This document shows positions 13,831-19,149 of a DNA stretch of 64,000 bases, in pieces. Made by a program: the position numbers and the translations under genes. Numbering within the stretch: position 1 is the stretch's first letter; each line of letters starts with the position of its first letter. This DNA comes from Silvimonas terrae (GTDB lineage Bacteria > Pseudomonadota > Gammaproteobacteria > Burkholderiales > Chitinibacteraceae), in NCBI RefSeq assembly GCF_014202765.1, contig NZ_JACHHN010000001.1, positions 871,735 to 935,734 on the forward strand, in the 5' to 3' direction. A model generated the notes under the pieces. It ran no database searches. It was not told where the DNA came from and saw only the letters and a program-made list of their open reading frames with translations.

Positions 13831-14829
<999 letters not shown>

Positions 14830-15042: not shown

Positions 15043-15744
15043 ATGCTGCGCCGCCTGTTTTCCCCAGTGCTTGACCCGCTCTCCGGCTTGCGCCATGCGC
15101 CAGCCAGGCGCGTATTGCTCAAGCAAATCTATTTCACCGGTAATGAGGCGGCGCTGCTGGTTTTGCTGGTTGGCTTTGCGCTGGGCGGTATTGTGGTGGC
15201 GATGTTGCATGGCCAATACGGCCAAAGTCAGGAGGCCGCCCTCCGTCTGCTGGCGTCCTTGGGGTTCAAGGAGATCAGCCCGTTACTGGCCGCGATTATT
15301 CTGGTGGCGCGTTCATCCTCGGCGGTGGCGAGTGAACTGGCGACCATGCAGGTTCATGGCGAAATCCGCAGTCTCTATCGCATGGGGATTCCGCTGGGTG
15401 GCTATCTGATCATGCCGCGCGTGCTGGGCATGACCGTTGCCTGTGTTGGCCTGTCATTTTACCTGGCAGTCGCCGCACAACTGGGTGGTGCCTTGCTGGG
15501 GGCGGGGGCCGATGTGACTTATCAAGTGTCCGAATTGGACCGCATGCTCACCCTGGAACAGGTGCTGACCTGCATGGCCAAGGCGGCGCTGTTCGGTATG
15601 GGCACCAGTTTGCTGGCGTGCCATGTGGGCTTGCGGGTCGGGCCGTATGTCACGGATATCCCCAAGGCATCCTCCCGAGCGGTAGTGCGGGGGCTCAGTG
15701 CGATTTTTGTGCTGGATTTCATGTGGTCGCTATGGCTCTCCTGA
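15043..15744 (+). CDS. MlaE-family ABC transporter permease
   Basis: A 233-residue inner-membrane permease of the MlaE family, which couples to MCE proteins to move phospholipids or other lipids between the membranes. The family core is evident: FTGNEAALLVLLVGFALGG, then LLAAIILVARSSSAVASELA leading into MQVHGEIRSLYRMGIPLGGYL, and a final helix FVLDFMWSLWLS. Five or six hydrophobic segments are visible. It is slightly short compared with E. coli MlaE (260). It leads a four-gene plus-strand operon; the next gene starts 13 bases before its stop. In place of a normal ATPase the next gene encodes a degenerate one. Confidence 0.85.
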   Translation: MLRRLFSPVLDPLSGLRHAPARRVLLKQIYFTGNEAALLVLLVGFALGGIVVAMLHGQYGQSQEAALRLLASLGFKEISPLLAAIILVARSSSAVASELATMQVHGEIRSLYRMGIPLGGYLIMPRVLGMTVACVGLSFYLAVAAQLGGALLGAGADVTYQVSELDRMLTLEQVLTCMAKAALFGMGTSLLACHVGLRVGPYVTDIPKASSRAVVRGLSAIFVLDFMWSLWLS

Positions 15745-16304
15745 AACTGTCTGGCGGGATTGAGCAAACGCTGGAGCCGGGTCAGCGTTACTGGCTGATC
15801 TGCGGCAATGAACAACAAATGCAGCAACGCTTTGACGCGTGTGCCGAGGTGCTGAATCCGTTGGCGCCCGGGCAGATTGGCGCGCTGGAAGGCACTGGTG
15901 GTTTGTTAAGCAATTTGCGGGTGTGGGAGAACCTGGCCCTGCCGGCCTGGTATCATCGCCAACAATCGCTAGCCCAGCTAGAGGTCCGCTTCCAGGAAGC
16001 GTTTGCGCAATTGGGGCTGGAGGGCAAGGCGCTAACCCAGTTGGCCGCGGCCTTGCCCGCCAGTCTGGATCGGGAGCGCAAGCGGCAATTGGTGCTGGTG
16101 CGTGCCTATATGCAGGAGGCCAGGTATTTGCTGGCAGATCAAGACTGGTTTGGCTGGATAAGTCAGTCTGCGCCGCACGCCTGCAAAGATTTGTTTGAGC
16201 GCATGACATTGGCGGTGCCGCTGGTGGTGGTGGGCATTGGTGCCCCGGACCCGGCGCTGCATATGCAAGAGATTCTGCCATTGCCACAAACCGAAGTCTG
16301 GTGA
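15732..16304 (+). CDS. Degenerate ABC ATPase-like protein (pseudo-ATPase of the MCE operon)
   Basis: A 190-residue protein that lines up end to end with MlaF-type ATPases but has lost the catalytic motifs. The P-loop position (residues 24-31) reads CGNEQQMQ instead of a GxxGxGKT. The Q-loop region survives as GGLLSNLRVWENLALP. The signature LSGGM becomes SLDRER (111-116). The Walker B acidic pair becomes YLLADQD (132-138), and the switch histidine is missing (VVVGIGAP). It therefore should not hydrolyse ATP. The frame is intact and its start overlaps the permease gene, which argues for a maintained structural role rather than decay. A normal pseudogene would show frameshifts or stops; none are present. 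Confidence 0.75.
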   Translation: MALLKLSGGIEQTLEPGQRYWLICGNEQQMQQRFDACAEVLNPLAPGQIGALEGTGGLLSNLRVWENLALPAWYHRQQSLAQLEVRFQEAFAQLGLEGKALTQLAAALPASLDRERKRQLVLVRAYMQEARYLLADQDWFGWISQSAPHACKDLFERMTLAVPLVVVGIGAPDPALHMQEILPLPQTEVW

Positions 16305-16434
16305 AGTGCGCTGTGGCTGGTGCAGATATGCTGGCGTGTTTGGCAGAACTTCAGCATATATATAACTAAAAAGTAACACGGCCCGCCCTGATGGGGTGGG
16401 TCAAAACCGCTTGTTTTGATTGCCGGATCGATTG

Positions 16435-17412
16435 ATGCCCATTAAATATCTCAAGGACACCGATGCCCGTTTCCAGTGGCTGGGCTGGCGGGTCGGTGTG
16501 TTCATTGTTGCTGGTTTTCTGTGCTTTGTTGCGCTGGTGGTGTTGCTGGCCATTCGCCAGGGTTATTTCACACCCAAAACGCGGCTGTCTTTTGTCGCAG
16601 AAAGTGGCAACAGTATGAGCACTGGTATGCAAGTGCGTTTTTCCGGCTTCAAAATCGGCGTGGTGGATCGTGTTGCACTCAATGACCAAGCCAAAGTCGA
16701 CGTCGAACTGCTGGTGGAGAACCGCTATCTGAAATGGGTCAAGCCCGACTCGGTGGCGCTGTTGCAGCAAGATGGCTTTCTGGGCGACCACTATATAGAG
16801 ATCGCTGGCGGCACGGCCACGGCAGCCCCTATTCAGGAGGGTGGCAAGCTCGTCTTTGCGCCAGTGATGGGTCTGTCTGAAATTGCGGCAGACCTGCGCC
16901 AGCGGACGATTCCGGTGATCGATTCGATTCATGACACGCTTGATTATCTGAATGACCCCAAGGGGGACGTGCGTGGCACCGTGGCCAATCTGAACCAGTT
17001 CAGTGCTGAGCTGCGTGAAACCCGCAAAACACTGGATCAGGTGTTGCAGCATCTGGATCAAGTCGCCGCCAAAGACTTGCCCGCCACGCTGGATCAAGCC
17101 ACCCAGGCTGCCCGCCGCGCAGACCAGGTGCTGGCCCAGGCAGACCGGGCGGCTTCTGATGTGGCTACCCGCCTGCCGGGTATTCTGGATAATGCCAACC
17201 GCACCGCCAGTGAGGCCGCGGCGCTGGCGACGACCGCGCGCAAGGCGGTGGATGGCGTCGCGCCGCAATTGCCCTCCATTGTGCGTAATGCCGGGGATCT
17301 GGTGCAGAGTGGCGATGATCTGGTGAACGGCGCGCAACGCAGTTGGCCGTTCCGCAACTGGGTCAGTGCGCCGGATGCTTCGGCGCCGGTGCCGGAAAGC
17401 CGGGGGGAGTGA
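16435..17412 (+). CDS. MCE-domain (MlaD-like) lipid-binding protein
   Basis: A 325-residue protein with a single N-terminal membrane helix (about residues 20-42), an MCE domain (about 50-130, including MQVRFSGFKIGVVDRVAL and the DGFLGDHYIEIAGG block), and a long helical, Ala- and Gln-rich C-terminal part (about 150-300). MCE proteins form hexameric rings or tubes in the periplasm that carry lipids. The ATG at 16435 is chosen over a TTG at 16420. It follows the pseudo-ATPase by 130 bases and is followed two bases later by a lipoprotein gene, so the operon has the permease, ATPase-like, MCE and lipoprotein parts expected of such a transporter. Confidence 0.85.
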   Translation: MPIKYLKDTDARFQWLGWRVGVFIVAGFLCFVALVVLLAIRQGYFTPKTRLSFVAESGNSMSTGMQVRFSGFKIGVVDRVALNDQAKVDVELLVENRYLKWVKPDSVALLQQDGFLGDHYIEIAGGTATAAPIQEGGKLVFAPVMGLSEIAADLRQRTIPVIDSIHDTLDYLNDPKGDVRGTVANLNQFSAELRETRKTLDQVLQHLDQVAAKDLPATLDQATQAARRADQVLAQADRAASDVATRLPGILDNANRTASEAAALATTARKAVDGVAPQLPSIVRNAGDLVQSGDDLVNGAQRSWPFRNWVSAPDASAPVPESRGE

Positions 17413-17415
17413 GCC

Positions 17416-18237
17416 ATGCTGCGTCAGCATTTACTGTATTTATTGCTGTTGGCGGCTGGTGCCCTGGTGGCTTGTAGTTCCGCGCCGACGCCACCCACGC
17501 CGGCCATGACGGTCGCCACCCAGGCGCGCACTGCCATGGCTAGCGCTAACCGGGCGGGTCATCAACAGCGCTGGGAGGATGCGGCCGTGCAGTGGCAGAT
17601 TGCGCTGACGCTGTTCCAGTCGGCAGATGACTGGAACGGGCAGGGCGAGGCACGACTGGGGCTGGCGAATGCCCAGGCGCGTCTGCATCAATCGCAGCAG
17701 GTGATCTCCACGCTGAGCGCCATGAACTCGCCCTTGTTCAGCAAGGCGCAACGCGCTCAGGCCACTTATCAACTGGCCTTGCTGGCCATGCCTGATGCAC
17801 ATGCGGCCACCGCGTTATTGCAACAATCGCAAACCTTGTGTGGCGCTGATTGCGCCATCGCTCCGCAATTATCCAATCTGGCAGCCCGCATTCGTCTGCA
17901 GCAAGGCGATGCGGCCGGGGCTTTGCAGCTCGCCAATGCAGTGCTGGCGCAAGGCGATGCCCTGCCGGTTGCGGAACGGGCCCATGCGTTGCGGCTGATT
18001 GCACAGAGCCATCTAGTGCAAGGGCAGCCGGCGGCAGGCTGGCAAACCCTGCAGCAAGGGTTGGCGCTGGACCGCACTCTGGCCAACCCAGCCTGGCTGG
18101 CCGATGACTTTGCGCTGCAACTTGAGCTGGCGAGGGCGCTGGCAGATCAGTCTTTGCAGGCCGACGCGCAGGCACGCCTGACCAGCGTGTGTGCCACTAC
18201 GGATGCACCGGCCTGTACCGGGGTGCGGGCACCATAA
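17416..18237 (+). CDS. TPR-like lipoprotein of the MCE operon
   Basis: A 273-residue predicted lipoprotein: a hydrophobic signal segment ends in the lipobox LVAC with the acylated Cys at residue 20. The mature part is almost all helix, made of repeated Ala-, Leu- and Gln-rich stretches such as RWEDAAVQWQIALTLF and QGDAAGALQLANAVLAQGD that look like tetratricopeptide repeats. Other MCE operons often carry an auxiliary outer-membrane lipoprotein (PqiC type) at this position; this one is different in sequence, so an equivalent role is inferred from position only. It is the last gene of the operon. Confidence 0.65.
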   Translation: MLRQHLLYLLLLAAGALVACSSAPTPPTPAMTVATQARTAMASANRAGHQQRWEDAAVQWQIALTLFQSADDWNGQGEARLGLANAQARLHQSQQVISTLSAMNSPLFSKAQRAQATYQLALLAMPDAHAATALLQQSQTLCGADCAIAPQLSNLAARIRLQQGDAAGALQLANAVLAQGDALPVAERAHALRLIAQSHLVQGQPAAGWQTLQQGLALDRTLANPAWLADDFALQLELARALADQSLQADAQARLTSVCATTDAPACTGVRAP

Positions 18238-18429: not shown

Positions 18430-19149
18430 ATGTCTATCAGCATGCGTCAGATGCTCGAAGCGGGCGTCCACTTTGGTCACCAAACCCGTTACTGGCATCC
18501 CAAGATGAGCCAGTACATTTTCGGTGCTCGCAACAAGATTCACATTATCAACCTGGAAAAGACCCTGCCGCTGTTCGAAGAGGCGCTGAAGTACGTGCGT
18601 CGTCTGTCGGCCAACAAGGGTACTGTCCTGTTTGTTGGTACCAAGCGCCAGGCTCGCGAAATCCTGGCTGAAGAAGCACAACGCGCCGGTATGCCGTTCG
18701 TTGATCACCGCTGGCTCGGCGGTATGCTGACGAACTTCAAGACCGTCAAGCAGTCCATCAAGCGTCTGGAAGACCTGACCGCTATTCTGGCTGATGAAAA
18801 CAACGGCTACGGCAAGAAAGAACTGCTGGACATCAAGCGCGAAGTTGAAAAGCTCGAGCGCTCGCTGGGCGGCATCAAGGATATGAAGGGTCTGCCGGAC
18901 GCGATCTTCGTGATCGACACTGGCTACCAGAAGGGTGCCATCGTTGAAGCCCAGAAGCTGGGTATTCCGGTGATCGGTGTTGTTGATACCAACAACAACC
19001 CGGAAGGCATCAACTTCATCATCCCGGGTAACGATGACTCCTCCCGCGCTATCCGTCTGTACGCCCGTGGCGTGGCTGATGCCGTGCTGGAAGGCCGTAA
19101 CCAGGCTGTGCAGGAAGTCGTGGAAGCTGCTGCTGAAGCGCAAGCGTAA
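18430..19149 (+). CDS. rpsB: 30S ribosomal protein S2
   Basis: A 239-residue S2 protein of the small ribosomal subunit. The opening [20 protein letters not shown], the block [18 protein letters not shown] and the C-terminal [14 protein letters not shown] are universal for bacterial S2. A GGAG ribosome binding site precedes the ATG. It is followed by tsf after a hairpin that should act as a partial terminator, the usual rpsB-tsf arrangement. Expression is probably driven by the promoter at 18270 and tuned by the structured leader. Confidence 0.98.

Follow-up and report, generated by a model that had tools for sequence, protein, structure and literature searches.

Described MCE systems offer several points of comparison for the subject of this study, a four-gene operon in a 64,000-nucleotide stretch of the Silvimonas terrae genome (hereafter the window) with a degenerate subunit, F, at the position of the ATPase MlaF. 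Like E. coli MlaFEDB, the operon combines an MlaE permease, an MCE protein and an F with the fold of an ATP-binding cassette (ABC) protein and a coupling-helix segment. Unlike MlaFEDB, its F lacks the nucleotide motifs, MlaB and MlaC are absent from the operon, the MCE protein is long, and the fourth gene encodes a lipoprotein with a tetratricopeptide repeat (TPR) fold. The set of permease, F, long MCE protein and lipoprotein is shared with Mpc of Brucella (passages of PMC12436622) and with L079, another operon of the same genome that resembles Brucella Mpc and coexists with the dead system. In those passages, Mpc is proposed as a trans-envelope bridge and has a STAS domain on its permease, an MlaF-homologous ABC ATPase and a PqiC-like lipoprotein (PMC12436622). 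In contrast, the window permease consists of 233 amino acids with the MlaE domain only, and the window lipoprotein has no Pfam match, TPR models included.

Other described systems share single features with the window. PqiABC and LetAB, as presented in passages of PMC12436622, likewise have an MCE conduit and a membrane protein without an ATPase domain, so MCE conduits that lack an ATPase exist. However, neither PqiA nor LetA is an ABC-subunit-bearing permease of the MlaE kind (same passages), whereas the membrane protein of the window operon is an MlaE by Pfam and no PqiA/LetA-type protein accompanies it. In V. parvula MlaEFD, passages of PMC10665443 propose that a long MlaD spans the envelope without MlaA or MlaC, a likeness to the window system; there, however, MlaF is described as closely resembling that of model diderms, and the MlaD has a beta barrel at its end. 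Loss of catalytic residues of the nucleotide-binding domain (NBD), as in F, also occurs in ABC exporters that have one degenerate nucleotide site (passages of PMC7756269). The window operon differs from them in that its only F gene has lost Walker A, the signature and the Walker B glutamate together. In such exporters one of the two sites remains active. Degenerate MlaF members are not mentioned in the passages of the MlaEFD phylogenomic study describing how MlaF was found by the PRK11831 profile and synteny (PMC10665443), and none of the open-licence papers listed by our searches describes an MlaE or MCE system whose MlaF is dead. Our analysis suggests that dead-ATPase systems of this kind carry lipids from one cell membrane to the other independently of ATP.

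A degenerate ABC subunit in an MCE operon

The initial annotation, made from the sequence alone, had claimed that an MlaF-like gene with every nucleotide motif replaced follows an MlaE permease gene. Alignment to intact MlaF confirmed this: Walker A, the Q residue, the signature, the Walker B glutamate and the switch histidine are all replaced in F, whose sequence predicts neither ATP binding nor hydrolysis. The reading frame is open and begins within the permease gene, which it overlaps by 13 bases, and the operon continues with the MCE and lipoprotein genes, both as annotated:

15043..15744, + strand: MlaE-family permease, 233 amino acids, without a STAS domain (Pfam MlaE, E 6e-39; tree; coupling-helix positions)
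15732..16304, + strand: dead MlaF-position ABC subunit (F; pseudo-ATPase), 190 amino acids
15801..15824, + strand: former Walker A position, now CGNEQQMQ (alignment to intact MlaF of the same genome)
15897..15956, + strand: coupling-helix segment GGLLSNLRVWENLALPAWYH, where conservation in the F family is highest
16062..16079, + strand: former ABC signature, now SLDRER (F alignment)
16125..16145, + strand: former Walker B, now YLLADQD, catalytic Glu lost (F alignment)
16435..17412, + strand: long-type MCE protein (Pfam MlaD, E 2.9e-11; TIGR00996, E 2e-17)
17416..18237, + strand: TPR-fold lipoprotein, 273 amino acids, probable lipid-modified Cys20

Profile comparison and predicted structure both give F the ABC fold of an NBD, which disposes of the counter-case named with the annotation, a protein without such a fold, and rules out chance resemblance to ABC proteins. 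MacB, FtsE, LolD and YbbA ranked at or above MlaF by family profile, fold comparison and NCBIfam, so the label "MlaF-like" rests on operon position and the coupling segment. MlaF is absent from the 50 VIA-align matches listed for F, which does not count against it, and no NCBIfam model reached its cut-off among the 8 matches listed for window F or the 25 of 109 listed for a relative (L115).

Within the family Chitinibacteraceae, F was matched in 35 of 37 genomes. The two without it (G009 and G034, genus g7) have no permease of this kind either, and the other three members of that genus have both. All 35 orthologues read, from 11 genera, are open frames without Walker A; the comparison at the same locus called for by the annotation thus found no intact relative in the family. 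In each of the 30 loci tested, F is flanked by MlaE and the MCE gene, and the lipoprotein is present within the fetched stretch in 29 of them. The annotation had also called for a ratio of nonsynonymous to synonymous substitution rates (dN/dS), which we calculated for the whole F gene against three Silvimonas relatives. The values are 0.13, 0.16 and 0.22, compared with 0.03–0.06 for MlaE and 0.03–0.09 for the MCE protein, with dS near saturation throughout (1.27–1.65 for F; 0.85 to 1.65 over the three genes). F is under purifying selection by this sequence measure.

Fast evolution relative to MlaE and MCE is what one might expect if F were a recently decayed pseudogene that happens to be open. 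Against such decay stand the open, Walker A-less orthologues across 11 genera, dN/dS below 0.25 and the invariant residues of the F family; we give it almost no weight, and the orthologues and dN/dS rule out a recent pseudogene. An artefact of a single assembly is likewise ruled out by the same set in many genomes. These observations support the view that F, in the position of MlaF, is conserved and catalytically dead and that its MCE operon is real.

NCBIfam MlaE models match the permease below their cut-offs, and the TIGR00996 match to the MCE protein (residues 27–290) is also below the model cut-off. The MCE reading frame is open from a TTG at 16420; the ATG at 16435 agrees with starts in relatives. 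The structure model of the lipoprotein, with a predicted local distance difference test score (pLDDT) of 95.9, bears out the annotated TPR-like fold; among PDB folds, TPR proteins such as LGN come closest to it, and PilW ranks lower. TPR Pfam models match 27 of 35 lipoprotein relatives, and Cys20 is present in 35 of 35, partly by construction because the sequences were chosen with a lipobox filter. That alignment holds 35 of 54 distinct sequences, with L068 left out for its wrong frame.

The operon is flanked by trxB-like (13831–14784) and rpsB-like (18430–19149) genes, named by eye, and the flanking gaps are too short for further genes such as mlaB or mlaC. A 130-base gap (16305–16434) separates F from the MCE gene, unlike in Chitinimonas loci, where the two nearly touch or overlap. 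One weak terminator-like site (16394–16412) falls in this gap, from a scan that was near background (3 promoter-like sites against 1.3 expected and 5 terminator-like against 4.1 expected).

Distribution and graded loss of the ATPase motifs

The same gene set occurs in Chitinimonas, in Gallionellaceae (Sideroxydans, Gallionella) and in other families of the order, as well as in metagenome-assembled genomes titled Nitrospirae and one record titled Verrucomicrobiaceae. Among 399 genomes sampled from the order, 31 had a match at E ≤ 1e-15, and 30 loci from six families (f1, f14, f21, f24, f33, f51) scored E ≤ 4e-31. Below 1e-40, the class sample (274 genomes) yielded the window's own genome alone, and the phylum of the Verrucomicrobiaceae record G328 (145 genomes) yielded that record alone. 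These samples indicate that the dead-F system is rare overall and nearly universal in Chitinibacteraceae. It is an old lineage trait found in more than one phylum, accompanied by a second, half-degenerate grade.

In two Gallionellaceae-type loci (L065:5185-6978, in reverse-complement coordinates, and L066:5630-7429) the order is F, MCE, lipoprotein, a large CHASE2-type cyclase-like membrane protein named by eye and MlaE, so that the permease is apart from F. In G328 (Verrucomicrobiaceae bacterium E54), the sole MlaE found in the record is the dead-F one (L120); horizontal transfer, contamination or incompleteness could account for this.

Alignment of 142 non-redundant F subunits adjoining an MlaE or MCE gene revealed 33 that are canonical, 98 without Walker A and 11 that keep Walker A and lack a canonical signature, counts that are not frequencies because the set was collected mostly with dead-F queries. 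We also searched with MlaE, an approach blind to F. In the order, F is dead in 24 of 24 readable cases at E ≤ 7e-34 (L057, on a 6.6-kb contig, had no readable F), and the next five matches (L059–L063) are all intact. In the phylum of genome G327, 15 matches scored E ≤ 4e-49, and 14 of 14 readable F lack Walker A; the next 14 loci (L277–L290) all have an F with Walker A, no canonical signature and an Asp replacing the catalytic Glu (DDP). Loci were read for all but the 19 weakest of the 49 matches in that phylum; in L275 and L291 the fetched stretch contained no F. The half-degenerate grade recurs in MCE operons of this phylum (L144–L146, L148, L150, L151, L153, L155, L157 and L277–L290), with Walker A kept, signatures such as LSLGE, LNLDQ, LNQGE or IGxNA, and DDP at Walker B; by sequence, these subunits may bind ATP but not hydrolyse it.

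The window MlaE belongs to a permease clade paired with a degenerate ATPase in every case read. We built a quick and a careful tree from 77 and 74, respectively, of 135 permeases, thinned at 80% identity. In the careful tree, the 27 permeases with an intact ATPase form one clade (support 100/100), and the main dead clade holds 34 rows (98/97). Scored as dead against Walker A-bearing, F requires three changes on this tree, at least two of them forced by starred branches, which leaves a single origin of all Walker A losses unsupported. Further MCE-linked F without Walker A were found in the phylum of G328 and in the class (L189, L193, L196, L198, L207; L160, L175, L177, L178; L159, L161). Since L160, L175, L177 and L178 lie outside the main dead clade in the careful tree, losses may be repeated; L159 appears in the quick tree only. 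The careful tree omits three long rows (L159, L120, L055), so the Verrucomicrobiaceae record L120 is placed from the quick tree. Repeated loss of Walker A is probable, in a branch that was by then no longer a normal ATPase. We infer this order, normal ATPase function first and Walker A later, from a tree that is unrooted and whose deepest split is weakly supported (72/39).

The predicted contact between F and the permease

Comparison of 22 intact with 56 dead F proteins identified what selection has kept. Mean column information fell from 3.67 to 1.14 bits at Walker A, from 4.32 to 1.43 at the Q residue, from 4.22 to 1.82 at the signature, from 3.53 to 2.04 at Walker B and from 4.32 to 0.72 at the histidine. 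The 15-column coupling segment was not reduced (3.19 bits in intact, 3.37 in dead proteins), and it overlaps the 15 consecutive columns that score highest in the dead proteins. The comparison excludes 12 of the 98 Walker A-less F that fall outside the main dead set, and both it and the quick tree exclude the intact row L121, a neighbouring system.

Cryo-electron microscopy, as described in passages of PMC7784689, places MlaE R142, S131, Q128, E127 and M135 in contact with MlaF E112, R157, L96, R52 and Y108. Four of the five MlaF positions show strong conservation across the dead set: of 36 proteins, 30 keep L96 and 35 keep R157, position 108 is Leu in 35 and position 112 is a new residue, Tyr, in 31. 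In the partner permeases, position 128 is Glu and position 142 is Tyr in all 36, and M135 is kept in 29. The R142–E112 pair occurs in 10 of 27 intact systems, and a Tyr–Tyr pair occupies the same positions in 31 of 36 dead ones. The conserved contact positions indicate that the permease contact is what evolution kept, in a form of its own.

Could F instead be a sensor or regulator that gates MlaE on binding some other ligand or protein? F has lost the canonical pocket motifs and retained the fold, the aromatic W65, W73 and Y74 and also H75 of window F are conserved, and the cyclase-like gene stands in the operon of the two Gallionellaceae-type loci. However, little is conserved family-wide outside the coupling segment, a pattern that fits a scaffold and not a ligand site, and we regard a sensor or regulator as rather unlikely.

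The same segment bears on the two possibilities raised by the initial annotation, an ATP-independent conduit or a permease that borrows its ATPase. In a borrowed arrangement, an intact MlaF of another Mla or Mpc system would drive the permease, with dead F as a regulator or assembly factor. Shared ATPases are known from mycobacterial Mce systems. Of 20 dead-F genomes checked, 19 carry another MlaE, and three further dead-F genomes (G327, G329, G330) have an intact MlaF beside another MlaE. The window's own genome encodes two intact MlaF-type ATPases, one in an mlaFEDC-like set on another contig (L078; MlaC named by eye) and one in L079 (contig C7), an operon of STAS-MlaE-like permease, intact ATPase, MCE protein and lipoprotein with names partly by eye. 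But both adjoin permeases of their own, of a different clade. Moreover, because dead F kept the segment that holds the coupling helix, it should occupy the NBD site on each permease, and a borrowed MlaF would need to displace it. A mixed dimer would, judging from its motifs, hold no complete ATP site, because Walker A and the signature of F are both gone. G328 has only the dead-F MlaE, in a genome possibly incomplete or contaminated. The conduit thus fits better, and the borrowed ATPase, weakened by the kept segment and the missing composite site, appears quite unlikely.

A proposed ATP-free conduit

We consider it probable that the operon encodes an ABC-derived MCE lipid transporter that works without ATP. 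The inner-membrane complex would comprise two copies each of MlaE and dead F and probably six of the long MCE protein, which would build a periplasmic needle docked on the TPR lipoprotein at the outer membrane. The former ATPase would persist as a cytoplasmic clamp whose groove still grips the MlaE coupling helix and keeps the permease in a fixed, probably open, state, and lipids would follow their own gradient through the conduit. In E. coli Mla, according to passages of a review (PMC10212509), spontaneous transfer from MlaD to MlaC needs no ATP and is prevented by ATP hydrolysis. Loss of the ATPase therefore predicts passive phospholipid flow from the inner to the outer membrane.

Several points weigh against this transporter. 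The stoichiometry, clamp role, lipid substrate, direction and absence of another energy source are parts that we infer, with direction, substrate and complex drawn from homology. The additional MlaE in nearly all dead-F genomes checked means that an intact MlaF is probably present in many of these cells. The rate of change in F is several-fold that of MlaE and MCE, which may mean that F has a minor role. At the contact itself, R52, beside Walker A, is lost in the dead set, MlaE E127 is replaced by Gly in 29 of 36 and S131 is variable. Finally, the dead system could be proton-driven: a search for a proton relay identified no charged residue unique to the dead MlaE clade, yet Glu98 (window numbering) is present in 36 of 36 dead-clade permeases compared with 63% of intact systems.

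More tentatively, and with somewhat less than even confidence, we propose that these systems constitute a third energy class of MCE lipid machines, ABC-derived and ATP-free. The ATPase would have been disabled stepwise in an old MlaE branch, first at the signature and catalytic Glu and then at Walker A, and more than once, because an idle F locks the permease as a passive inner-to-outer phospholipid conduit, the reverse of ATP-driven Mla.

A natural series of MlaE complexes with intact, half-degenerate and dead ATPases bears on the route of phospholipids to the outer membrane and on the part played by ATP in Mla, and it offers a direct test of what ATP contributes to the direction and rate of lipid movement. 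Genomic counts of "MlaEFD" may include systems unable to use ATP. If the proposal is true, an ABC permease has been kept for a very long time with its NBD turned into a structural clamp.

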